DNA of 44,288 nucleotides, taken from assembly GCA_030605835.1 (NCBI GenBank), contig JAUWHO010000038.1:1-44288 (forward strand), written 5' to 3'. Made by a program: the position numbers and the translations under genes. The notes below the pieces were generated by a model. The model searched no databases. It was not told the DNA's origin and was given only the letters and a program-made list of their open reading frames with translations. Shown in pieces: positions 3,994 to 19,290 of this stretch. The DNA is from Candidatus Zixiibacteriota bacterium (GTDB lineage: Bacteria; Zixibacteria; MSB-5A5; DG-27). How positions within the stretch are numbered: the first letter of the stretch is position 1; every line of letters begins with the position of its first letter.

Positions 3994-6900
3994 TCATTTG
4001 CTCTCTTCCGCGGACGTCATTTCAAGCCCTCTCCGGGAGCTGGCTTTGAACTGCAATTCCTTAGTCAGGCAGTAGGTAACCGGCACCACATAGATCGACA
4101 TCAAAGCTATGAGCATCCCTCCGAAACTGGGAATAGCCATCGGTACCATTACATCGGCGCCGCGGCCCTTGCTGGTCAGGACCGCCAAGAGAGCCAGAAT
4201 GGTTGTGGCGGTGGTCATCAAGGCCGGACGGGCCCGGCGCACTCCCGCCCACACCGTATTCTCCCGAATTTCCGCGATGGATTTAGCCGGCCGCTTCGAG
4301 AAAATCTGTTCCAGATAGGTTCCCATCAGCACACCGTTGTCGGAGGCAATTCCAAAGAGCGCCAGAAACCCCACCCAGACGGCAACGCTTAAGTTGATGG
4401 GGTGTATCTGAAAAAGCTGGCGCATGTTGACCCCGAAGATGGAGAAGTCGAAGAACCAGCTCTGGGAATAAAGCCAGATGAGGATGAAGCCTCCCGACCA
4501 GGCGACGATTATGCCGGTGAACACCAGAAGGGAAGTCGATACCGAGCGGAAGTTGAGATAGAGGATCAGAAAGATAATCAGAAGGCTCAAGGGGACTACG
4601 ATCATCAGGGTCTTCTCCGAGCGCACCTGGTGCTCGTAAGAGCCCGCAAACTTGTAGCTCACCCCGCCGGCGATGACCAGCTCCCCGCTTTCGATCTTGT
4701 TCGCAAGATACTTCTGGCACTCCTCCACCACCTCCACCTCCGCATAGCCGGATCTTTTGTCGAAGACGACGTATCCGACCAGAAATGTATCCTCGCTCTT
4801 TATTACCTGGGGACCGCGGAGGTAACGGATTTCCGCCAACTGGATCAGGGGGATTTGGGAGCCGTCGGCGGCCGGCACTAAAATCCTGTCCAAAGCTTCG
4901 ATATTATCCCGCAACTCCCGCTGATAGCGCACTCGTATAGGATATCGCTCACGGCCCTCAATCGTGGTCGAGATCCTCTTACCTCCGATGGCGAATTCGA
5001 TCACATCCTGAACCTGGCGGATATTCACACCGTAGCGGGCAATTGCTTTTCGGTCGATATCGATTTCCAGATAGGGTTTGCCCACGATGCGGTCAGCGAA
5101 GACGGTCCGGGCGTCCACGGAGGGAACCTCTTTTAAGAACCTCTCAATATCAAGCCCCACTTTCTCCACCTCCTCGAGGGAGGGACCAAAAACCTTCACT
5201 CCCATGGGGGCGCGCATGCCGGACTGGAGCATGACGATGCGAGCCGCGATGGGCTGAAGTTTGGGTGCGGAGGTTGTCCCCACGATCTGTGCGGCCTCAA
5301 CGATCTCTTTCCAGATGTCATCCGGGGTTCGGATATGCTCCCGCCACTGCCGATGTCGCTTTCCGGTCACGGGATCGGGGGGGCTGTATTCCGGCTTGTA
5401 GTTTATGACGGTTTCTACCATGGAGACCGGTGCCGGGTCCAAGGGGCTCTCCACCCTGCCAATTTTGCCAACCACCGACTCCACCTCGGGGATGCTTCGG
5501 ATGGCCATGTCCTGTTTCTGGAGAATGTCTAAAGCTTCTCCGATGGAAGCATGTGGCATGGTAGTGGGCATCAAGAGATAGGAACCCTCGTCGAGAGGCG
5601 GCATGAACTCCTTGCCCAGCCCGGGGAATTTGTGGGAGGCGTTGACCCAAAGCCTGGTGCTGCGCACCGAATCCTCTGAGACCCCGAGCAGTCCAAGGCC
5701 AGCCGAGACAGGAGAAAGGGCGCGGTCGAACCCCTGCCAGATTACCAGGCCGAAGATCACAGCGGCCAGAGGCAAAGAGTAGAAAAGCAATTTCCGCCTC
5801 AGAAAGAACCGCAATATCGGCTCGTAGAAATGCTGGAACAATCTGAAGAAGCCCAGAAGCCCTCCGATGGTGAGAATCACGAACACTAGGTTTCTTATCG
5901 TTCCTTTGTTTATTCCCAGAGGCATCCAGTGATGGGTCAGGATTACGAGCACCAGAAGAGCTGCCAGGAGAATGGAGAGGGGCCCCACCCGTTTCCGTAT
6001 TTTCTCTGGAAGGAGAGGTTCAATGAGCCGGTAGATTCCGACCGAAGCGATCAACGCCCCGGCCCACCATAGGAATACGAAGCCGACGACCACCCCGATC
6101 AGGACGATAACGAAATTGACGATCAGCCGCCGGCCTCGCGAACTAACACGCTCTTTCAAGAACATGTGGGCGAAGGGAGGCAGGATGACGACCGCGACTA
6201 CCACCGAAGCTAAGAGAGCGAAAGTCTTTGTGTATGCGAGGGGCTTGAAGAGTTTCCCTTCCGGTCCTGTCATCGTGAAGACCGGCAAAAACGAGATAAT
6301 AGTGGTGCTGATGGCAGTGACCACCGCCCCGGCCACCTCTTTGGCGGCATTATATATAACCTCAAGCCTGGTCTCCCCCGGTTTTGCCTCCTGGAGACGC
6401 TTGAGGATGTTCTCGGACATGATGATGCCCATATCGACGATGGTCCCGATGGCGATCGCAATCCCCGAAAGCGACATTATGTTGGAATCCACCCCCGCCA
6501 TCTTCATGGCGACAAAACAGACAAGCACCGCCAGCGGCAAAAGGCCGGAGATGAGCATTGAGCTCCGGAGATGCATCACCATTATGATGACGACAATAAT
6601 GGTGATGAGGATCTCGTCGGTGAGGGCTCCCTCCAGGGTGCCGAGGGTTTCGTGGATGAGCTGGGTTCTGTCGTAGAAGGGCACTATCTTTACCTCAGAG
6701 ATGGTGCCGTCAGGTAGAGTCTTTTTGGGAAGCCCGGGGGAGATCTCCTGGATCTTCTTTTTAACGTTCTTTATGACTTCGAGCGGGTTTTCACCGTAGC
6801 GAACCACCACCACTCCCCCAACGACCTCCGCCCCCCCCTTGTCAAGGGCGCCTCGTCTGGTTGCCGGACCGAGGGCTAAAGTGGCAACATTCTTGATGTA

Positions 6901-7728
6901 GATAGGAACATTGTCAACCTCCTTGATGACGGCATTCTCAAGGTCTTCAATATCCTTCACGAAACCGAGACCTCGAACGATATATTCAACCCGGTTGATC
7001 TCTATGGTCTTGGCGCCGACGTCGATATTGCTTGACCTCACTGCATTGACAATCTCGGCAAGGGTGACGTTGTGGGCACGCATCGCATCGGGATCAACGT
7101 CGATCTGGTATTCCTTGACGTAGCCGCCAACGGAGGCCACCTCGCTTACCCCCTCTGCGGAAGCCAGAGAGTAACGCACATACCAGTCCTGGATGGTGCG
7201 CAGTTCCTGGAGGCTAAAACCCTTTCCCTCCAGGGTGTACCAGAATATCTGCCCCAAGGCGGTGGCATCCGGTCCGAGGGCGGGGCTGACACCTTGCGGC
7301 AAATCCTTCTGGGCAACGCTCAACCTCTCAAGGATGCGTGAGCGTGCCCAGTAAAAGTCCACCTTTTCGTCGAAGATGACGTAGATGCTAGAATACCCGA
7401 AAAAGGAAAAGCTGCGGATGGTCTTGACGGCGGGGACGCCGAGGAGGGAAACCGTCAGAGGATAGGTGATCTGATCTTCAACGTCCTGGGGAGATCGTCC
7501 CATCCATTCGGTGAAGACCACCTGTTGATTCTCGCCGATGTCGGGAATTGCGTCCACCGGCACCGGGTCGCGAGGAAACTCTCCCAACTCGATGTCAAAG
7601 GGCATCACATGCAGGCCCCATAAGAGCATGAGGATAAGAAGGACAAATACGATGAACTTGTTTTCCAGACAAAAACGGATCAGCTTGCCAAGCAGGCCTT
7701 CCTTTTGGTTCAGAGCATCTTTATTCAT
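3994..7728 (-). CDS. cusA: CusA/CzcA-family heavy-metal efflux RND pump
   Basis: 1244 residues. Inner-membrane proton-driven pump of a tripartite efflux system. The N-terminal helix is at about 25-45, followed by VDAIPDIGENQQVVFTEWMG, a heavy-metal RND signature. Porter-domain text such as DATALGQIFWYTLEG and the TM block SMLISGLLPLAVLVCF...SLSGIAIAIGTIVDMGIIMSEN follow; the IGTIVDMGI segment carries the proton-relay acid. MLQSGMRAPMGVKVFG is Met-rich and fits Cu(I)/Ag(I) handling. The usual family length is about 1040; the extra length is a hydrophobic insert at about residues 535-700 with several predicted helices, before GKEFMPPLDEGSYLLMP. The ATG lies 8 bases inside the upstream adaptor gene, with GGGAGAAGG as ribosome site. 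Metal choice (Cu/Ag over Co/Zn/Cd) rests mainly on the adaptor's domains. Confidence 0.93.
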   Translation of the reverse strand: MNKDALNQKEGLLGKLIRFCLENKFIVFVLLILMLLWGLHVMPFDIELGEFPRDPVPVDAIPDIGENQQVVFTEWMGRSPQDVEDQITYPLTVSLLGVPAVKTIRSFSFFGYSSIYVIFDEKVDFYWARSRILERLSVAQKDLPQGVSPALGPDATALGQIFWYTLEGKGFSLQELRTIQDWYVRYSLASAEGVSEVASVGGYVKEYQIDVDPDAMRAHNVTLAEIVNAVRSSNIDVGAKTIEINRVEYIVRGLGFVKDIEDLENAVIKEVDNVPIYIKNVATLALGPATRRGALDKGGAEVVGGVVVVRYGENPLEVIKNVKKKIQEISPGLPKKTLPDGTISEVKIVPFYDRTQLIHETLGTLEGALTDEILITIIVVIIMVMHLRSSMLISGLLPLAVLVCFVAMKMAGVDSNIMSLSGIAIAIGTIVDMGIIMSENILKRLQEAKPGETRLEVIYNAAKEVAGAVVTAISTTIISFLPVFTMTGPEGKLFKPLAYTKTFALLASVVVAVVILPPFAHMFLKERVSSRGRRLIVNFVIVLIGVVVGFVFLWWAGALIASVGIYRLIEPLLPEKIRKRVGPLSILLAALLVLVILTHHWMPLGINKGTIRNLVFVILTIGGLLGFFRLFQHFYEPILRFFLRRKLLFYSLPLAAVIFGLVIWQGFDRALSPVSAGLGLLGVSEDSVRSTRLWVNASHKFPGLGKEFMPPLDEGSYLLMPTTMPHASIGEALDILQKQDMAIRSIPEVESVVGKIGRVESPLDPAPVSMVETVINYKPEYSPPDPVTGKRHRQWREHIRTPDDIWKEIVEAAQIVGTTSAPKLQPIAARIVMLQSGMRAPMGVKVFGPSLEEVEKVGLDIERFLKEVPSVDARTVFADRIVGKPYLEIDIDRKAIARYGVNIRQVQDVIEFAIGGKRISTTIEGRERYPIRVRYQRELRDNIEALDRILVPAADGSQIPLIQLAEIRYLRGPQVIKSEDTFLVGYVVFDKRSGYAEVEVVEECQKYLANKIESGELVIAGGVSYKFAGSYEHQVRSEKTLMIVVPLSLLIIFLILYLNFRSVSTSLLVFTGIIVAWSGGFILIWLYSQSWFFDFSIFGVNMRQLFQIHPINLSVAVWVGFLALFGIASDNGVLMGTYLEQIFSKRPAKSIAEIRENTVWAGVRRARPALMTTATTILALLAVLTSKGRGADVMVPMAIPSFGGMLIALMSIYVVPVTYCLTKELQFKASSRRGLEMTSAEESK

Positions 7729-9601
7729 GCCGGCCTTCTCCCTCTCCTTCCTCCCCGGGGCCGGAGGAGAGCGTCTCTGTCAACTTTCCGCATTTGAACA
7801 TGGCTTTGCCGAAGTATGGATTCTCAACTTCGGGCTTGTTCTGCAGCCAGTCGGCGCCCTGCCCCTCGAAGGCCATAGAGCAGTGGAAGCGGAGGAGCGC
7901 CTCTCTGCCGCCGGGGCCGAACTTCCTTGCAGTTGCGATCAGGGACTCCGAGAGGGAGGCGAATCCCGAACGGGCGGCGGCGATATCCTCGGCAACGGCC
8001 ACCTCGCCGGCGGCCTTTTTCAGAGCCTTATATTGTCTCATCCATGCTGTATGGGTAACCCCCTTCAACAGTTCCATATCCACAGCATCGAGAGCGTTCA
8101 CTGCTTGCTTGGCCCCCTCCTGGGCATCCTTCAATCGATCTTGACTTAAGCCCTGTTGAACTTTGAAGTAAGTTGAGAAAACCGGGCCTAACTCGGTTTT
8201 GAATCTGTCGGGAGCTTCAAAAACTCCGGCTCTTGCCTCTTCGACTTTTTTGGTGGGAGTTGTCTGAGTCCCGCCATGTTGATGCCCCGGCGGTGTGCCG
8301 CCCCCCTGGGGATTCATCATGCTGGGCCGGGCCTCGATCTGAAGGGCGCTGTCGATCTTGAAATTTCCGTGAACCACTACTCGTTCCCCCTCGCTCAGCC
8401 CGGATTTAACCACGTAGTAGTCTCCAGCCCTCGGCCCCAACTGCACAATTCTGCCCTCATAGGTAGGGCGCTCCATCTCCGGAACTTCGACGTAGACAAC
8501 GGCACGCTTGCCGGTAATGAGAGGTGCGGTTGCTGGAATCACCAGTGGTCGGTCCTCTCCTCCTTCAGAAAGGTTGGCTTTTAGCTGGGCACGTATGAAC
8601 ATGCCGGGTTTCAATCTCCCTTGAACGTTGGGGACCTCCACCCGAACCCCCACGGTGCGCGTCTTCTCGTTTAAGAAAGGGTCTACGAAGACGATACGCC
8701 CTTTAAATGTCTCACCGGGATAGGCCTCGGCTCTAAATTCGATCTCCTGACCATGGCGAATCCAGACGAGATCCGACTCGTAGGCCTCCAACAGAGCCCA
8801 TACTAAAGAGAGGTCTGCTATACTGTAGATGCGGGTGCCGGTTTTGACATACATCCCTTCGAAGCCATTCTTTTCGATGACCGTCCCGCCTATGGGACTA
8901 TGAATGGTCATATGATCATCGGTCGTTCCCCTCTCTTTGATTTCAGCGATTTGAGCTGGTGAGATCCCTGCAAGGCGCAGCTTTTCTTCCGCGGACTTCA
9001 GGGTAGCTTCCGCCATCTCCTTTGACAGTGCATCGGCACTCCCTCTGAGTTGTTCTCTCATCTTGAGGGCCTGGAGGTACTCCTCCTGGCTGGAGAGAAG
9101 CTCAGGACTGTAGATGTAGACCATAGGAGCGCCCCGGTCCACCTGCACACCGGTGAAATTGTAATAGAGACGGTCGATACGGCCCGGCACCCAGGAGGCG
9201 AGGTGAAATACCCGGCTCTCATCGTAGTCAATCTTTCCGACCATCCTTATGCTTTTGACGACGCGCTTGCGAACAACTGCTGCGGTCTGGATTTCCGCCA
9301 GCTCTTTGGCTGCCTCTGACATGGTCAGTCGCCGGGGGTGCTCTTCCCCCAGATCTTCCCCCTTCACCGGAACCAGGTCCATGAAACAGATCGGGCATTG
9401 ACCCGGCTCCGGCAATCTGATCTGCGGATGCATGGAGCAGGTCCAGATCGCCGGCTCGGTTTCACCCGCCTCCAGAGGGGATGCCAGTTGCTCGCCGGTG
9501 GACAACTCTTGGGGGGTCGGCTTCAACATGTAGCCGAGTAGAAAAGCGAACAACACCAGCAGGGGTATCAATATCTTTCTTAGTTTGATTGAGAGTTTCA
9601 T
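7721..9601 (-). CDS. cusB: CusB-like periplasmic adaptor with metal-binding domain and DUF3347
   Basis: 626 residues. Membrane-fusion protein linking the inner-membrane pump and the outer-membrane channel. Residues 8-25 are a hydrophobic anchor or signal. Residues 52-78 form a heavy-metal-binding domain with CSMHP (Cys55, Met57, His58) and CPICFMDL (Cys69, Cys72, Met74), a standard N-terminal unit of Cu/Ag adaptors. The adaptor core (HlyD-type hairpin, lipoyl and barrel parts) spans about 95-440, with VVHGNFKIDSALQIEA near its end. After a His/Gly-rich linker (GGGTPPGHQHGG), residues about 470-615 match DUF3347, including FHCSMAF and NPYFGKAMFKCG. That domain is often fused or linked to copper systems. 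AGGAGG lies upstream of the ATG, 12 bases after the TolC-like gene; the 3' end overlaps the pump gene by 8 bases. Confidence 0.92.
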   Translation of the reverse strand: MKLSIKLRKILIPLLVLFAFLLGYMLKPTPQELSTGEQLASPLEAGETEPAIWTCSMHPQIRLPEPGQCPICFMDLVPVKGEDLGEEHPRRLTMSEAAKELAEIQTAAVVRKRVVKSIRMVGKIDYDESRVFHLASWVPGRIDRLYYNFTGVQVDRGAPMVYIYSPELLSSQEEYLQALKMREQLRGSADALSKEMAEATLKSAEEKLRLAGISPAQIAEIKERGTTDDHMTIHSPIGGTVIEKNGFEGMYVKTGTRIYSIADLSLVWALLEAYESDLVWIRHGQEIEFRAEAYPGETFKGRIVFVDPFLNEKTRTVGVRVEVPNVQGRLKPGMFIRAQLKANLSEGGEDRPLVIPATAPLITGKRAVVYVEVPEMERPTYEGRIVQLGPRAGDYYVVKSGLSEGERVVVHGNFKIDSALQIEARPSMMNPQGGGTPPGHQHGGTQTTPTKKVEEARAGVFEAPDRFKTELGPVFSTYFKVQQGLSQDRLKDAQEGAKQAVNALDAVDMELLKGVTHTAWMRQYKALKKAAGEVAVAEDIAAARSGFASLSESLIATARKFGPGGREALLRFHCSMAFEGQGADWLQNKPEVENPYFGKAMFKCGKLTETLSSGPGEEGEGEGRHE

Positions 9602-9613
9602 GATCAGATCCTC

Positions 9614-10975
9614 CTATTTGGATTTGCTTTCAGGTAGCTTAGCTCCGACTATCTCTTCGAGCCCAGCCAGATTTTGCTGAAAGTCCGCCTGTGCTCTCTC
9701 ATACGCAAGTTGGAAGTGAAGAAGCATGCGTTGAGAATCGATCAGATTCAAAAAGTCGGTCTTATCGGCCTTGTAGCTTTCTTCGCTCACCCGAAGCGAT
9801 TGCTCCGCTCTGGGTATGAGACTCTCTTTGTAGAGAATGATCTGTCGCTGGGCGGTATTGATTCTAAAATAGCTGTCTTTGACCTCGAAAAGGAGCATGT
9901 TTTCTCTATCGCTGTAGGCGAATCGTTCGGATAGGGTTTTTGTTTCGGCTTCGCTGACGCCGGCTCTTTTCTTGCCCCACCAGATTGGCAAACTCATTGA
10001 GAACATCACAGACCAAGCATCCAGACCCTCCTGGGGAGCCATGGGGGCCCCCAGATCGATCTGTTGGTATTGAACGCCCACGGCGAAATCTGGGAAGTAG
10101 TCGAGCTTTGCGAGCTTCAGCTCACCTTCTGCCTTCTCGATCAGTTGCCGGTGGAGACTCAGCTCAGGAGAAGAAGCTTTTGCCAGCTTATAAAGACTAT
10201 CAAGGTCAAGAGTAAGCGTTTCAAACTCGCTTCCCTCGGGGTCTCCCAATGGTGCCTCCGGCGAGCGACCAAGCAGGGCATTTAGCTTCGCCTCCACGGT
10301 GGTCTTCATCTCCAGGAAGGTGTCAAGGTCGTTTTGCAGTTTTGATATCTCCACCTGGGCCTTCAGCACATCCTGCTGCGGAACTTTGCCGGTTGCATAC
10401 TTTATCTGAGCTACCTTCTCCAGCTGTTTCAGCAGGCCCACGTTCGACCTCGTGATGGTGATGGCCTTTGTGATCCAGTAGAGTTCGAAATAGGTCTGCT
10501 TCACCCTGGAGGTTACCACAAGCCGAGTAGACTCATATCTCTCCTCGAAGACCCCTGCTTTCGACTGAGCGATCTTTGATTTGGTCTTCAGTTTGCCAAG
10601 CCACGGAAGCCTCTGAGAGAGCGTAATCCCTCCCCGGATGGGGCCATTTCTGGTCTCAATCTGTTCCCCAAAGTAGGTCACACCGACTGCCGGGTCCGGG
10701 AGACTGGAGACCACCTTCGGCCTACTTAAAGCTGCCTCCCAGCGAGACTTGGCAGCTGCGATCTGGGGGTTCGCCGCAAGAGCGTAAGCGACCGTCTCTT
10801 CGAGCGACAACAGAGAGTCAACCTCTCCCAGGTCTGGCAGTTCCCCTTTTGCACTCTGATCTGCCTGCTCACTCGAGGCCAGATCTGCACCGTAGTAATA
10901 GTCACGTCTCGAAGTGGCGCAGACCAGGGCGGGGAGTGCCACGATAAGCACTGTTACGAAAAGCAAATTCTTCAT
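9614..10975 (-). CDS. cusC: TolC-family outer-membrane efflux channel (CusC-like)
   Basis: 453 residues. The signal peptide ends about VCATS. Two repeats of the OEP fold are visible: SLEETVAYALAANPQIAAAKSRWEAAL (about 57-83), and TLDLDSLYKLAKASSPELSLHRQLIEKAEGELKLAKLDYFPDFAVGVQYQQ in the second half. PDPAVGVTYFG and FPDFAVGVQY are typical strand segments. Length and helix pattern fit the family. AGGAGG is seven bases upstream of the ATG, so the start is secure. It is the first of three channel/adaptor/pump genes on this strand, and its role follows from that context: exit duct for the CusBA-type complex. It lies 120 bases downstream of a Cys-rich exported protein and may be cotranscribed with it. 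Confidence 0.92.
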   Translation of the reverse strand: MKNLLFVTVLIVALPALVCATSRRDYYYGADLASSEQADQSAKGELPDLGEVDSLLSLEETVAYALAANPQIAAAKSRWEAALSRPKVVSSLPDPAVGVTYFGEQIETRNGPIRGGITLSQRLPWLGKLKTKSKIAQSKAGVFEERYESTRLVVTSRVKQTYFELYWITKAITITRSNVGLLKQLEKVAQIKYATGKVPQQDVLKAQVEISKLQNDLDTFLEMKTTVEAKLNALLGRSPEAPLGDPEGSEFETLTLDLDSLYKLAKASSPELSLHRQLIEKAEGELKLAKLDYFPDFAVGVQYQQIDLGAPMAPQEGLDAWSVMFSMSLPIWWGKKRAGVSEAETKTLSERFAYSDRENMLLFEVKDSYFRINTAQRQIILYKESLIPRAEQSLRVSEESYKADKTDFLNLIDSQRMLLHFQLAYERAQADFQQNLAGLEEIVGAKLPESKSK

Positions 10976-11095
10976 TTATGACCTCCTAAATCCTTCAAGC
11001 TACGAGTAGCTTACAAGCCTAGACGCAACCCGAATACCTGCGACTGTCAGGGCCGCCTGACATCCTAACAGCATTGCGGATGCGGGTTTCTGGAT

Positions 11096-11437
11096 TTAAG
11101 CTAAGGACTTAGGAGGATGATCAATTAGAGAGGGGAGGAGTGTTACCCTCTGGTGGGAAGGAAAAGGTTTGTAAATGGACAGATCAAAAGCTAACCATAC
11201 TTGGCCTGAATCTAAAATGGCCAGCGACGAATTGCCTGTGCAGAAAAAGGGCTTGCAGCCTTGAGATTCAGAGTCATTCTCAGTCTGGTCAGTGCAATCA
11301 CAGTTGTCTCCACAGCAATCCATCCTGCAAGAGTACGCGGCACGATCCGACAAGGCCTCCGCCACCGTCGCAACTGCGGGAGCAGCGTAAGGACTGAGAA
11401 TACAAAAGGCAATTATGTAAGCAAGTACGTGTCTCAT
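11096..11437 (-). CDS. Small Cys-rich exported protein heading the metal-efflux operon
   Basis: 113 residues from the ATG at 11437; a TTG two codons upstream is the alternative. Neither has a strong ribosome site. Residues 1-23 form a signal peptide (AYIIAFCILSPYAAPAVA). The mature N-terminus holds CRMDCCGDNCDC (Cys37, 41, 42, 46, 48), followed by an acidic linker and CKPFFC (Cys61, 66). That makes seven cysteines in 30 residues, with a nearby Met. I know no exact family name. Such short exported Cys-rich ORFs beside cus-type operons are plausible periplasmic metal chaperones or scavengers. Position on the same strand as, and directly before, the TolC-like gene supports a metal role. Function is inferred. 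Confidence 0.6.
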   Translation of the reverse strand: MRHVLAYIIAFCILSPYAAPAVATVAEALSDRAAYSCRMDCCGDNCDCTDQTENDSESQGCKPFFCTGNSSLAILDSGQVWLAFDLSIYKPFPSHQRVTLLPSLIDHPPKSLA

Positions 11438-11672
11438 TACCAAGCTGCAATCTCTCGTTTAGCTGTTCAACGCAAAAAGCATCCAAGAGTTCCCGGCAGA
11501 AGAGAAAAATACTAAATCGGCCACATTAACCACTCCGAACCGAATCTGACCTACCCTCGCCAAGCTGCCTCGTATGCCACCGCAGCGCGTCAGGCAGCCA
11601 GAAAGTTGAAGGTCACGGAGGTGGGCCCTAAGCGGCATTCAGGCAGTAGGACTTTCTAGCACTGGTTTCTAG

Positions 11673-11708: not shown

Positions 11709-11717
11709 ATAACCCTG

Positions 11718-11752
11718 GACCTCCCCGCAAGGGAGGTCTACTATTTTGATCT
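11718..11752 (+). terminator. Hairpin with T-rich tail after repeat B2
   Basis: GACCTCCC (11718-11725), loop CGCAA, and GGGAGGTC (11731-11738) form a perfect eight-pair stem, followed by TACTATTTTGATCTT. The shape is that of a rho-independent terminator on the plus strand. No gene is found upstream on that strand, so it may mark the end of a lost gene, a small RNA, or shield the downstream lipoprotein gene. Confidence 0.5.
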
Positions 11753-11848
11753 TAGGGGTAATCGTTATATCTTTCACCTGAATAAATCTAAAGTGGGCAG
11801 GAGAATATGGTTTCCACCCCAGTCATGCCAATGAAAGGAACAGATAAG

Positions 11849-13606: not shown

Positions 13607-16600
13607 ATGAGACATTTCATTTTACTCTTCGGGGTGGTTGTGACATTTGGACTCTCGTTGCTGGTAATGCCTTGTGCTTTAGCTACAGGAGGAGGGCAGG
13701 CAATCACCGTTACGATACCCGCGGGCAGCTACCAGATCACAGACACAGAACGCGGACAGGAAATCACTGTTGAGGATTTTGGATACCTGCTGGTACCAGG
13801 AAAACCAGCTCTCCCCTCTAAGATCTTCGCTATTGCGATTCCTCCAGGTGCTGAGGTTGTTGATGTCAGTTTTGATGCCGGCCGCGGTATTACGCTACCC
13901 GGAGTTTATGAAATAGCTCCGGCTCCCTTGCCGAGAGTGATTGGTCAGGAGGACCCTTTCATTTACGAGAAAGAAAAGCAGCTTTATCAGAAGAATTTTG
14001 AGTCTGTTTACGGTAGTGATGACCTATATCCTCAAGAGGTTGTAGAATTTGTACGTGCTGCCGGTTACAGGAAATACAACTTGGTGGATGTGAGAGTTGT
14101 GCCATTTACATATCGTCCCATATCTGGCAAGTTGGTTTGTTACCCCGAAATTGCTGTCCGAGTAAGCTACAGACCCTCAAGCAGACTAAGCGAGGCAATC
14201 GTTGACAACTTGGAGCGAACTGAGCGAATCGCGGAGGAGATCATAGTCAACTATGACCAAGCTATGAGCTGGTATCCACAGGAGATGCCAATGGTCAGCG
14301 ATCTTCACGACTTCGTAATCATTACCCTGAGCTCGTTGGCAGAATCGGTTGCTCCTCTGGTGGACTGGGAAACCACAAAGGGGAGAAACGTTGAAGTGGT
14401 GACCACCTCCTGGATTGATGCCAACTATAGTGGCTACGACCTGGCGGAGAAGATGAGAAACTTCCTCAGAGAGAAGCACCCCTCCAGTGAATGGGGCATT
14501 GAAGATGTGCTGCTTGTAGGTCATTACGATGATGTTCCGATGCGTCGCACATGGCAGGATGTTGGCTACGGAAAGCCGGAGACTGATTTTTACTATGCGG
14601 ACCTCTCCTTACCGGATGATCAATCCTGGGATATCGACCAAGATCATCTATATGGTGAGGATGCGGACATAAATGATTTCTATGCGGAGGTGAGCGTTGG
14701 TCGAATCCCCTGGAGTGATCCCGGTGTTGTGTTGAGTATTTGTGAAAAATCCGTTGCCTATGAGCAAAACGACGACCCGACATTTAAAAAGAACATACTC
14801 CTTCTGGGGGCTTTCTTCTGGGACGATGATCCTAACCCTCGTACTGATTGTGCCGTGCTCATGGAGGCAAAGGTCGATCAACCGTGGATGTCTGATTGGA
14901 CTATGACCCGGATGTACGAGCTGGGCTACTCCACATATCCAATGGACTACGACCTGAGGAACAGTAACGTGGTCTCGGTGTGGTCGTCCGGCACCTATGC
15001 TTTTGTGAACTGGGCCGGCCACGGAAGCCCGTATTCCAGCCATAGATATCACGATACCGGGGAGGCTTTCATCCATTCGAGCAACTGTCCGCAGCTCAAC
15101 GACGATTATCCCGCAATTATTTTTGCGGATGCTTGCAGCAATTCAGATACCGATTATTTGAATATCGGACAGGCAATGATGCGGCAAGGGGCGGTGGGTT
15201 TTTGGGGGGCTACTAAAGTCGCCTATGGATGTCCAGGCTGGACCGGTCCGCTCGACGGCTCCAGTCAGTCTTTAGACTACTTCTTCACAACGTATGTCAC
15301 CTCAGGCGAATATAGTCAGGGTGGGGCTCATCAAAGGGCCTTGCGGGATATGTACCTGTATGGGCTATGGTATAATGTCAAGTATGAAACGTTTGAGTGG
15401 GGAGCGCTTTGGGGTAATCCGGATCTGGGGATGGCTCCTCCGGTGCCTCGGCCGTTGGTCATTCTCTTACCCGATGGCTTGCCTGAGTACCTCGAGCCAG
15501 GTGTCCCCACCACTTTTATAGTTCGGATCGAGAACGGCGGCCAGAATTATGTTGCCGGCACCGGGAGGCTCCACTATCGCTATGACGGTGGTGATTTCTT
15601 GACCTCCGAGTTGACCTCCATCGGAAAGGGCCTCTACGAGGCCACCCTCCCGCCCGCGGGTTGTGATGCCGTCCCGGAGTTTTACATCAGTGCCATGGGA
15701 GACGGGGGATCCACGGTACTGAGTCCGCCGGATGCGCCCAATTCAGTTTACACCGCATTGGTCGGGACCGTAACCATAGTCATGGAGGACAATTTCGAAA
15801 CCCATCAAGGCTGGACCGTCTCCGGCGATGCCCTCGACGGTCACTGGGAACGAGGTGTGCCCGTAGGCGGTGGTGGGCGAGGTGATCCGCCGAGGGATTT
15901 CGATGGCTCCGGGCGATGTTATCTTACCGGCAATGAAGTCGGAGACTCCGATGTTGACGGTGGGTACACCTACCTGACCTCTCCGACCATCGACCTCTGC
16001 GAGATTGAAGACCCTCAAGTCGAGTACGCCTTGTGGTACACCAACAATGTGGGCAACGCTCCCAACAATGATCTGTTCAAGACCTATATCTCCAGCGATA
16101 ACGGCGCAAGCTGGGTTTTGGCTGAGACGATCGGCCCCGCGAGCATCGGCGGTTGGGCAGAGCATTCGTTTAATGTCACCGACTTTGTGACCCCCACTGA
16201 GCAGACTAAGGTCCGCTTTGAGGCCTCAGATCTTGACAGCGCATCCGTCGTTGAAGCTGGGATTGATGCTTTTAGGGTAGTGATAGTGGAATGCGATGAG
16301 CTCCCCACAGTCTCCATCGACATAATCCCCGACAACCCGCCGATTGTGGTGCCTCCGGGAGGATACTTCACCTATACCGGTGTTGTCACCAACAACACCT
16401 CCACTTCCCAGAGGGTCGATCTCTGGGTGATGGTCACCTTGCCCAATGGTGATCCGTACGGGCCGGTCAAGCAGTTCAGCAATGTGCCTCTTGGGCCCAA
16501 CCAGACCAGAACCCAGACCGAGATCCGGCAAAACGTTTCCAGCCTTGCGCCTCCGGGAGATTACGTCTACACCGCCTACTGCGGCGAGTATCCCTCCAAT

Positions 16601-16972
16601 GTGATCTCCCTGGATTCCTTCGAGTTCACCGTCACCTCCGGAAAGGTGAGCGAGGGCGTTGATTGGACCCTGGAGGGATGGTTTGACGAGGGCAGGGAGC
16701 TGTTGCCGGAAAGGACCGAGCTGTTCGGCAACTTCCCCAATCCGTTCAACCTCACCACCACATTCAGCTACGCTCTGGCGAATGATGCTGATGTGACCCT
16801 GGAAGTGTATGACCTCCTCGGCCGAAAGGTGACTACGCTTATTAACAAGCAGCAGCAGGCTGGTTACCATCATCTGATCTGGAATGCAAAAGTGATATCA
16901 TCCGGCGTGTATTTTTACAGAATTCACGCAGGAGATTTTACTGAAGCTAAGAAGATGTTGCTGTTGAAATAG
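13607..16972 (+). CDS. C25 family (gingipain-type) cysteine peptidase with T9SS sorting tail
   Basis: 1121 residues. A signal peptide (about 1-27) is followed by a propeptide-like region to about 220. The peptidase C25 core starts near FVIITLSSLAESVAPLVDWETTKGRNVEVVTT. The catalytic dyad is visible as NWAGHGSP (His472) and FADACSNSD (Cys510), spaced as in gingipains. An Ig-like gingipain C-terminal segment follows (about 605-700), then a jelly-roll-like domain (about 720-895) and a further Ig-like segment. The last about 80 residues are a T9SS type A/FlgD-like tail: NFPNPFNLTTTFSY, VYDLLGRKV, SSGVYFYRIHAGDF, KKMLLLK. The product is predicted to cross the outer membrane through the type IX system. 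The start is followed by a typical signal; GAAGGAG lies upstream. No inhibitor gene is adjacent. Confidence 0.9.
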   Translation: MRHFILLFGVVVTFGLSLLVMPCALATGGGQAITVTIPAGSYQITDTERGQEITVEDFGYLLVPGKPALPSKIFAIAIPPGAEVVDVSFDAGRGITLPGVYEIAPAPLPRVIGQEDPFIYEKEKQLYQKNFESVYGSDDLYPQEVVEFVRAAGYRKYNLVDVRVVPFTYRPISGKLVCYPEIAVRVSYRPSSRLSEAIVDNLERTERIAEEIIVNYDQAMSWYPQEMPMVSDLHDFVIITLSSLAESVAPLVDWETTKGRNVEVVTTSWIDANYSGYDLAEKMRNFLREKHPSSEWGIEDVLLVGHYDDVPMRRTWQDVGYGKPETDFYYADLSLPDDQSWDIDQDHLYGEDADINDFYAEVSVGRIPWSDPGVVLSICEKSVAYEQNDDPTFKKNILLLGAFFWDDDPNPRTDCAVLMEAKVDQPWMSDWTMTRMYELGYSTYPMDYDLRNSNVVSVWSSGTYAFVNWAGHGSPYSSHRYHDTGEAFIHSSNCPQLNDDYPAIIFADACSNSDTDYLNIGQAMMRQGAVGFWGATKVAYGCPGWTGPLDGSSQSLDYFFTTYVTSGEYSQGGAHQRALRDMYLYGLWYNVKYETFEWGALWGNPDLGMAPPVPRPLVILLPDGLPEYLEPGVPTTFIVRIENGGQNYVAGTGRLHYRYDGGDFLTSELTSIGKGLYEATLPPAGCDAVPEFYISAMGDGGSTVLSPPDAPNSVYTALVGTVTIVMEDNFETHQGWTVSGDALDGHWERGVPVGGGGRGDPPRDFDGSGRCYLTGNEVGDSDVDGGYTYLTSPTIDLCEIEDPQVEYALWYTNNVGNAPNNDLFKTYISSDNGASWVLAETIGPASIGGWAEHSFNVTDFVTPTEQTKVRFEASDLDSASVVEAGIDAFRVVIVECDELPTVSIDIIPDNPPIVVPPGGYFTYTGVVTNNTSTSQRVDLWVMVTLPNGDPYGPVKQFSNVPLGPNQTRTQTEIRQNVSSLAPPGDYVYTAYCGEYPSNVISLDSFEFTVTSGKVSEGVDWTLEGWFDEGRELLPERTELFGNFPNPFNLTTTFSYALANDADVTLEVYDLLGRKVTTLINKQQQAGYHHLIWNAKVISSGVYFYRIHAGDFTEAKKMLLLK

Positions 16973-17365: not shown

Positions 17366-18454
17366 ATGATAAATGAAATACAGACCCTAGAAAAGATCAA
17401 AGAGTCGTTAATAAAGATATTTGAATCCGCCCAGGCAGCACGGATAGCAAAAGTGACAGAACAAGGATTTGTTAGCCAAGATCGATCCCAAGGCTTGCGG
17501 CCAGATTTAATTGTCGACCTCGAAACGCCAAATAATAAACGATACCGATTAATCGTTGAAGTAAAATCAAGTGGTCAACCACGATTGGTCCGGATGGCTA
17601 TTAATATTTTGCAGACATTAATTGATAATAAACCGAATGCGTATGGGGTTTTTGCAGCACCATATATTTCAGAGGACTCCCAGCAATTATGCAAGGAAGC
17701 TGATATAGGGTTTGTGGATATGGCGGGAAATTGTTTTCTTAAATTTGGCGAAATCTATATTAGCATTGAAGGCAAAAAAAATCCATATCCATCTTCATGG
17801 TCGCTCAAAACATTATTCTCTGCCAAATCATCGCGCGCATTAAGGGGGTTGCTTTCCAGTGAAAAAAGAGATTGGTTAACCATTGAGCTTGCGCAGGAAG
17901 TAAATATAAGTCTCGGATTAGCCTCGAAAGTAAAACAATACTTATTGGAGAATGAATTGGCGAAAGGGGTTCAAGAAGGTAAGTTGAGGAAATTCAAGCT
18001 GACAAATCCAGAGCAATTGCTAACGAGATGGTCAGACGAATACAATTATAAAAAGAATAACCTGAACGATTATTATTCGATAGAGGATATAAAAACACTT
18101 GAGCGAAAATTACCGGGGATTCTTTCTGGAAATGATATCAAATATGCCTTTTCATTAACCTCGGGAGCCTCATTTGTAGCCCCCCATTTGAGATATAGGC
18201 GCTCATTTGTCTATATCGAAAGTGGAAAAATCAATGAAGCAGCGGAGCTGTTGAAACTGAAACGTGTTACATCAGGGGCAAATGTCATATTAATGGAACC
18301 GTATGACGAGGGTGTGTTTTATGGTCTCCAGGACATTCGTGGAGCCAAAGTAGTTTCAGTCATACAGCTTTATCTTGATCTTCGAAATTTCAAAGAGCGT
18401 GGAGAAGAAGCAGCTGAATTTATTCTTCAACAGAGGATAAAAAATAGATGGTAA
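17366..18454 (+). CDS. AbiEi-type antitoxin with PD-(D/E)XK-like N-terminal domain
   Basis: 362 residues. The N-terminal 120 residues contain RPDLIVDL (Asp47) and, 18 residues on, VEVKSSG (Glu65-Val-Lys67). This is the order and spacing of a PD-(D/E)XK nuclease fold, followed by ADIGFVDMAGNCFL, a segment recurring in proteins annotated as type IV AbiEi antitoxins. A winged-helix region lies at about 150-210 (LRGLLSSEKRDWLTIELAQEVNISLGLASKVKQYLLE). The C-terminal domain includes YAFSLTSGASFVAPHLRYRRSFVYI. Role: transcriptional autoregulator and antitoxin for the nucleotidyltransferase encoded next. The stop overlaps that gene's ATG by seven bases. Composition is markedly AT-rich compared with the neighbours, suggesting horizontal gain. 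Whether the nuclease-like residues are catalytic is unknown. Confidence 0.82.
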   Translation: MINEIQTLEKIKESLIKIFESAQAARIAKVTEQGFVSQDRSQGLRPDLIVDLETPNNKRYRLIVEVKSSGQPRLVRMAINILQTLIDNKPNAYGVFAAPYISEDSQQLCKEADIGFVDMAGNCFLKFGEIYISIEGKKNPYPSSWSLKTLFSAKSSRALRGLLSSEKRDWLTIELAQEVNISLGLASKVKQYLLENELAKGVQEGKLRKFKLTNPEQLLTRWSDEYNYKKNNLNDYYSIEDIKTLERKLPGILSGNDIKYAFSLTSGASFVAPHLRYRRSFVYIESGKINEAAELLKLKRVTSGANVILMEPYDEGVFYGLQDIRGAKVVSVIQLYLDLRNFKERGEEAAEFILQQRIKNRW

Positions 18455-19290
18455 CAAAAAGCGATTATGGCGATTCAGCCGTTCAGGCATGTTTGTCCGT
18501 GATGGTCGAATTAATGACAGTGCTTGGTGAATTCCGCGACGGGATGGTCTTGGTAGGTGGCTGGGTTCCCTATTTTTTGTTTCCTGAAGACCAGAAAAAT
18601 CACATTGGCAGCCTTGATATTGATATTGCTTTTGACTTTAATAAAATTCCCGTGGATTCCTACGGAACTATATTGAAACTGCTCGAAAAACAGGGTTATG
18701 TACAAAGCGACAAACAGCCCTTTATCTTTTATCGTAGCGTTAAGGATAAGGACGGAGTGCCCATTAAAATAGAGATAGACCTGCTATCAGGCGAATATGG
18801 TGGGACGAAAAAATCTCACAGGACGCAGACCATCCAGGATGTTAAAGCGAGAAAGGCACGCGGTAGCGATTTAGCTTTCAGTATTAATTCATCTACAAAA
18901 TTGAGAGCGACTATGCCTGATGGCGCGATTAATGAAGTGAAAGTAACAATACCTGGCGCGGTTCCTTTTCTTGTTATGAAGGGGATGGCTATGTGGGACA
19001 CTATCAGGGAAAAGCACGCCTATGATATTTATTTTTCTATCGAACATTTTGAGGGTGGTATCGATGCTTTAGTTAAGGAATTTCAGCCTCATAAATCGCG
19101 CTCTTTGGTGAAGGAAGGTCTCGGCAAAATCAGAAACCTGTTTGAATCGATTGATTCACAAGGTCCAGTTGGTGTTGCTAATTTTCTGGAAATCCATGAT
19201 GGCGATGAGAGAGCGCAGCTAATCAGAGATGTCTTTGAGAAAGTGAATACTCTTATGGATTCCCTCGGAATAGATCCTTTTAGCGATTAG
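18448..19290 (+). CDS. AbiEii-type nucleotidyltransferase toxin
   Basis: 280 residues of the DNA polymerase beta-like nucleotidyltransferase superfamily. LVGGWVPYF (Gly37-Gly38) is followed by GSLDIDIAFD with Asp57 and Asp59 as predicted metal ligands. A further acidic strand, IKIEIDLLSGEYG, may supply the third carboxylate. The C-terminal half is helical (FLVMKGMAMWDTIREKHAYDIYFSIEHF), with a Lys and KHAYDIY typical of the AbiEii/AbiGii family. Known family members modify RNA or GTP-related targets and cause reversible growth arrest or phage abortive infection. It is translationally coupled to the AbiEi-like gene and shares its AT-rich composition. Family assignment is firm; target and phage role are inference. 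Confidence 0.85.
   Translation: MVTKSDYGDSAVQACLSVMVELMTVLGEFRDGMVLVGGWVPYFLFPEDQKNHIGSLDIDIAFDFNKIPVDSYGTILKLLEKQGYVQSDKQPFIFYRSVKDKDGVPIKIEIDLLSGEYGGTKKSHRTQTIQDVKARKARGSDLAFSINSSTKLRATMPDGAINEVKVTIPGAVPFLVMKGMAMWDTIREKHAYDIYFSIEHFEGGIDALVKEFQPHKSRSLVKEGLGKIRNLFESIDSQGPVGVANFLEIHDGDERAQLIRDVFEKVNTLMDSLGIDPFSD

Follow-up and report, generated by a model that had tools for sequence, protein, structure and literature searches.

A cysteine-rich leader in front of a cus-type efflux operon in a Zixibacteria genome: a candidate CutF-like nascent-peptide sensor of copper or silver

Copper sensing is usually described in terms of protein regulators that act on transcription. CutF and CruR show that a growing, exported polypeptide chain can sense copper. 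In Rhodobacter capsulatus, the exported peptide CutF senses copper while still nascent, and its translation opens a stem-loop that hides the Shine-Dalgarno (SD) sequence in front of cutO (PMC9973294). The authors list as features of CutF a signal peptide, a CxxxC motif, a C-terminal proline motif and the SD-hiding stem-loop, and they report that the peptide is degraded after export, that its tail alone did not cause stalling in a reporter, and that outer membrane efflux genes are the commonest neighbours of CutF-like proteins; CutF itself is assigned to DUF2946 (Ozturk et al. 2023, PMC9973294). CruR of Bordetella pertussis, also a DUF2946 protein, senses copper via a CXXC motif and a C-terminal RAPP motif and acts by Rho termination, the regulation being independent of its signal peptide (Roy et al. 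2022, PMC9426467). Arrest on CruR has been demonstrated in vitro, the P and A sites being occupied by its two prolines (PMC12992588). Marinimicrobia, Planctomycetes, Verrucomicrobia, Zixibacteria and Gemmatimonadetes are not mentioned in the main text of PMC9973294, and a few relatives in Planctomycetes are mentioned in PMC9426467. No account of Cys-rich leaders in front of cus pumps was found in the open-licence literature.

In this paper we describe such a leader in a Candidatus Zixiibacteriota genome (GCA_030605835.1). The window, that is, the whole stretch of DNA that was analysed, comprises 44,288 nt of contig JAUWHO010000038.1, and the coordinates of its features and of comparable leaders are collected in Table 1. 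A sequence-only reading had placed a small Cys-rich protein just upstream of tolC-, cusB- and cusA-like genes, with seven Cys in 30 residues after a signal peptide; the ORF is present at 11437..11096 on the minus strand, the order on that strand is leader, tolC, cusB, cusA, and the seven Cys occupy exactly 30 residues (37-66) after a signal-peptide-like start.

Table 1. Positions of the leader, its sequence elements and the pump genes in the window, and of comparable leaders at other loci.
Feature	Position	Strand	Details
Leader (upstream) ORF	11096..11437	-	113 aa; signal-peptide-like start; C-terminus ...IDHPPKSLA
Signal-peptide-like segment	11366..11437	-	MRHVLAYIIAFCILSPYAAPAVAT; about residues 1-24; hydropathy filter, cleavage site placed by eye
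Main Cys cluster	11294..11329	-	CRMDCCGDNCDC; C-R-M-D-C-C-G-D-N-C-D-C; residues 37-48
Second Cys pair	11240..11257	-	C-K-P-F-F-C; residues 61-66; Cys 52 and 47 residues from C-terminus
Pro108-Pro109 codons	11111..11116	-	CCU CCU; putative site of slowing or arrest
Anti-Shine-Dalgarno	11103..11116	-	CCUCCUAAGUCCUU; codons Pro108, Pro109, Lys110, Ser111 and part of Leu112
Leader-tolC spacer	10976..11095	-	120 nt; internal hairpins predicted to bring anti-SD and SD together
tolC Shine-Dalgarno region	10982..10995	-	AAGGAUUUAGGAGG; core AGGAGG at 10987..10982
tolC/cusC-like outer membrane efflux protein	9614..10975	-	PF02321, 1.2e-53
cusB-like adaptor	7721..9601	-	HMBD and DUF3347 domains
cusA-like RND pump	3994..7728	-	TIGR00914 above cut-off
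Own-phylum leaders	L063 2602..3153; L082 2766..3227; L045:1380-1838	L063 and L082: reverse strand as turned	11 to 19 Cys
CxMxCC family with terminal PLLI or close variants	L122, L123, L125, L129, L161, L163, L186-L215

The leader opens with an ATG at 11437 and closes with a stop codon at 11098-11096; a TTG at 11443, two codons further upstream, is also a possible start. Its product begins with MRHVLAYIIAFCILSPYAAPAVATVAEALSDRAAYSCRMDCCGDNCDCTDQTENDSESQGCKPFFCTGNSS and ends with LLPSLIDHPPKSLA, and carries one further Cys inside the signal-peptide-like start, beyond the seven. A survey of 158 proteins from the same genome, each 300 aa or longer, found no 30-residue window with seven Cys among 73,626, and the pattern CxxxCC was absent from all 78,366 residues. 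When ORFs of 80-150 aa were called mechanically in 396 kb of the source genome, only one out of 948, the leader, combined a hydrophobic start, at least five Cys with a CxxxC, and a PP among its final 15 residues. Codon usage failed to support the ORF, by the overall and by the synonymous-only score: it is atypical (98.8% of 608 true-gene pieces score higher) and no better than that of spurious ORFs. The leader frame scores best of the six by codon usage. A scan for sigma-70 promoters gave no match. A terminator-like hairpin of ten pairs, six of them G-C, lies at 11716..11740 (+), between the leader and a divergent SnoaL-like gene at 11807.

The product of cusA aligns with E. coli CusA (3ne5) in two long stretches and, read by eye, has Met at three places, which we take to be those of the M573/M623/M672 copper-site cluster of the E. 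coli protein. Because Met occupies these places, the sequence makes Cu(I)/Ag(I) the likely substrate of the pump. The sequence-only reading had also suggested that the leader is unrelated in sequence to CusF. A PF11604 search found no CusF in the source genome and no CusF domain in the leader; the absence of CusF makes a substitute conceivable. Like CusF, the leader is a small, apparently exported protein of a cus operon, but it differs in being Cys-rich.

The last codons of the leader can form 14 pairs with the tolC SD region, including a single G-U. The energy of this duplex is -23.6 kcal/mol, against a mean of -13.3 for 500 dinucleotide shuffles of the upstream strip, none of which was as low (p 0.002, the floor of the test). 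For comparison, 50 gene pairs from the source genome and 46 from related loci were taken, all of them ordinary, on one strand and with similar gaps; none of the 96 reached p<=0.05, and their biggest excess over shuffles was -4.9, versus -10.3 for leader and tolC. The fold of 11130..10940 has a z of -3.27, with 1 of 200 shuffles as stable, and a tighter segment has a z of -3.94, with none of 200 as stable. In a 571-nt RNA, the SD core is predicted to pair with the anti-SD with a probability of 0.996. This pairing is predicted to persist (0.994-0.996) for each of the seven ribosome positions sampled as far as codon 100, and to be lost (0.000) with a ribosome on codon 108, 109, 111 or 113. When the anti-SD was covered and the whole RNA was folded, the SD found other partners and its unpaired probability was only 0.13; when only RNA 3' of the ribosome was folded it was 0.42-0.54. 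The idea that a stalled ribosome frees the SD fully is thus borne out only in part and, since the freed SD finds other partners, opening is predicted in direction rather than in full. An in-frame CCUCC must encode Pro-Pro, and the PP motif and the anti-SD are therefore one observation, not two. A search of Rfam gave one meaningless match (E 0.58).

CutF-like proteins were recruited by iterative sequence search from CutF clusters and defined by feature rules, and the locus was compared with these feature rules. With 113 aa, the leader is within the limit of fewer than 150 aa for a protein with a Sec signal peptide, although its hydrophobic start is judged by hydropathy only; CRMDC (residues 37-41) supplies the CxxxC, a feature of the seed list; PP at residues 108-109 of 113 is no more than 15 residues from the C-terminus; and tolC, on the same strand, follows at 120 nt, within the 1000 nt allowed. 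A stem-loop that hides the downstream SD, a feature of the CutF mechanism, is present by prediction only. The leader departs from CutF in four respects: it has no sequence match to DUF2946; it has seven Cys in two groups, whereas CutF has one CxxxC; its target would be tolC-cusB-cusA instead of a multicopper oxidase gene; and its anti-SD falls within its own Pro-Pro codons, not between genes as described for the stem-loop of cutF-cutO (PMC9973294). With CruR (PMC9426467) it shares its place as the first gene of a copper operon and a Cys motif some 45 residues ahead of a C-terminal PP, but it has neither RAPP nor a DUF2946 match. It likewise resembles the RAPP/RGPP arrest peptides, as presented in PMC12992588, in being a small, presumably secreted upstream ORF with a C-terminal PP, but its motif, DHPPK, is not RAPP-like.

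Searches of Pfam, NCBIfam, PHROG, PDB and plasmids returned no sequence match to the leader protein. The DUF2946 model (PF11162) did not match it at E 10 and matched nothing in the source genome, where the leader has no homologue apart from itself. Across 132 genomes of the phylum the sole convincing match was again the leader itself; 13 weak matches (E 0.006-0.09) were also obtained, several of which run through stops. No candidate among wider genome contigs was confirmed, and the sole other genome of the genus, which is 52% complete, matched neither the leader nor CusB. As no homologue was found, nothing shows selection on the leader's own cysteines.

Comparable leaders were sought at 80 loci from many phyla, fetched with CusB as a hook, of which 59 were usable, with a tolC ORF preceded by 500 nt of sequence or more. 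In 19 of these, mostly from other phyla, a signal-bearing, Cys-rich small ORF lies just upstream of tolC; the 19 were chosen by eye from a filtered ORF list whose other ORFs were judged spurious, and L127, where no tolC was found, was omitted. Pfam and NCBIfam gave chance-level matches only on 17 leaders. Within the phylum of the window a Cys-rich leader was found in just 3 of 40 upstream regions, some of them short (G123, G071 and G125), and in G123 a YHS-type gene stands between leader and tolC; the three own-phylum leaders (L063, L082 and L045 in Table 1) resemble the window ORF in plan alone. Six cus loci without a leader (L088, L102, L107, L121, L137 and L156) have a gene upstream of tolC for a Cys protein that is presumably YHS-type, as is that of a similar gene (L045:2016-2726) which coexists with a leader.

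Nine leaders of one group could be aligned, with invariant Cys and a terminal PLLI, and their profile matched in 83 out of the 245 genomes available for the phylum to which L163 belongs (Candidatus Marinimicrobia). Sampled members of this family matched no Pfam or NCBIfam model above chance. The sequence-only reading had staked itself on the Cys pattern recurring beside other cus operons, and CxMxCC leaders do precede tolC at several loci: CRMDCC of the window fits CxMxCC, the versions of the family being CDMPCC, CAMPCC, CDMSCC and CDMACC. Judged by sequence, this recurrence is a likeness of motif rather than demonstrated homology to the window leader, since the L163-type profile does not match the source genome; across the window's phylum it gave one poor match, with stops. 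Seven leaders from Gemmatimonadota, Planctomycetota, Verrucomicrobia and relatives (L097, L104, L111, L124, L131, L141 and L159) end in short Cys- and aromatic-rich tails such as HCCFLI, HCSFLI, FCSFRC and YCVYLL, possibly a different type of arrest motif.

Complementarity to the tolC SD recurs among the comparable leaders, usually on or just after the leader stop codon. It reached p<=0.05 in 6 of the 15 related leader-tolC pairs tested (Fisher combined 2.9e-6) out of 21, L111, L113, L123, L124, L131 and L159 having been omitted for an unclear tolC start. In the CxMxCC/PLLI family 12 of 30 loci did so, with a combined 3e-10 that overstates the case because the sequences are related. None of the 30 was excluded, even though several starts that were assigned automatically, with gaps >200 nt, are probably wrong; eight of the 30 repeat loci of the 15-pair test, and the sequence of L199 equals that of L187. 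The distance from cysteines to the C-terminus is also conserved. Despite differing leader lengths, the last Cys lies 62-64 residues from the C-terminus in 28 of the 30 family members, and in leaders of other groups it lies at 62-71 in 9 of 12, compared with a mean of 0.6 and a maximum of 4 in 5000 shuffles, the range having been picked after the distances were known and Cys of the last 35 residues set aside. The main cluster of the window leader ends at 65, yet the very last Cys of this leader, at 47, falls outside 62-71. The spacer of about 45 residues in CruR and CutF, as given in PMC9426467 and PMC9973294, matches the second Cys pair of the window.

From this anatomy we consider it probable that the leader acts in cis, as a nascent peptide which detects Cu(I)/Ag(I) in the periplasm and governs how the pump is translated. 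Argued by analogy, it most likely works in the manner of CutF, a likeness of mechanism that does not establish relatedness. Given the 14-bp pairing, the pump genes are predicted to be closed while no ribosome stands at the leader end and codons Pro108-Leu112 are free to pair with the tolC SD. The nascent chain would be threaded through Sec, so placed that its cysteines are just outside the membrane when the ribosome has come to the C-terminal Pro-Pro, and metal bound to them would slow the final steps of translation, as reported for CutF. A ribosome paused there would cover the anti-SD, its footprint at Pro108 taking in all 14 nt, and one with Pro108-Pro109 in the P/A-site register of CruR would also cover it entirely. 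Once the SD was freed, tolC would be translated, and cusB and cusA by coupling. After its synthesis the peptide may be broken down, or it may bind some metal as well. What we infer here is that the peptide is exported, that it binds metal, that the ribosome pauses, and that control runs in the direction of metal opening the pump.

The sequence-only reading had instead proposed a periplasmic metal chaperone with the role of CusF. As such a chaperone, or as a sponge, the mature peptide with its many Cys would take up Cu(I)/Ag(I) and pass it to CusB/CusA. Much of this agrees with the sequence, which is consistent with an exported, Cys-rich, cus-linked and probably metal-binding protein, and the seven Cys, the signal-peptide-like start, the place in the operon and the lack of a CusF in the genome all suit such a role. 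A free chaperone is nevertheless not the best reading, because it leaves the tolC SD complement, the C-terminal PP and the constant Cys spacing unexplained; moreover, CusB already has its own HMBD and DUF3347 domains, and CutF, the nearest studied analogue, is reported to be degraded after export. We regard a chaperone as unlikely. Plain translational coupling, in which any ribosome passing the leader end opens the tolC site while the nascent chain senses no metal and the cysteines serve otherwise, would need nothing beyond the SD complementarity at the leader end, but it does not explain why Cys-rich, signal-bearing leaders of several phyla keep a fixed distance from their last Cys to the end, and it seems to us rather improbable.

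It is more doubtful still that the leader is an attenuator of the CruR type, with ribosome arrest governing Rho-dependent termination in the spacer rather than access to the SD, and with a possibly opposite response to copper. CruR does have a Cys motif, a C-terminal PP and a spacer of 162 nt, comparable to the 120 nt found here; against this stand the unmatched DUF2946 model, the lack of RAPP and the strong SD-hiding helix that is predicted, and copper would be expected to induce an efflux operon, not to shut it. Least credible is that the ORF is no gene but a frame that happens to be open across a structured 5' leader RNA. Atypical codon usage and the lack of a homologue would fit a chance frame, but a combination of features seen once in 948 ORFs would not, nor would the recurrence of this anatomy in front of tolC in other phyla, one family alone being conserved over 83 of 245 genomes.

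Judged by sequence anatomy alone, a CutF-like trick may be used in front of copper/silver pumps in several phyla which go unnamed in the main text on CutF (PMC9973294), by proteins that share no detectable sequence. It is possible, and we propose it only tentatively, that copper pumps in many phyla outside Pseudomonadota are under the control of Cys-rich nascent-chain sensors which are unrelated in sequence but follow a single plan. In this plan a Cu(I) site some 62-71 residues from the C-terminus would be just clear of ribosome and translocon when the ribosome is at the end, and an anti-SD would lie where that ribosome stands; in most leaders this is at the stop codon or immediately behind it, and in the window it is in the Pro-Pro codons. 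The constant distance from Cys to the end makes the model testable, as sensing should fail when the tail is lengthened or shortened.

Other genes of the window include one at 17366..18454 (+) with a match to AbiEi_2 (4.5e-12), the antitoxin of a type IV toxin-antitoxin system; it is overlapped by an ORF at 18448..19290 (+) which has no Pfam match and whose product may be its nucleotidyltransferase-type partner. At 13607..16972 (+) lies a gene for a C25 (gingipain-type) peptidase with a propeptide and a Por secretion tail, which suggests that the source organism has type IX secretion.
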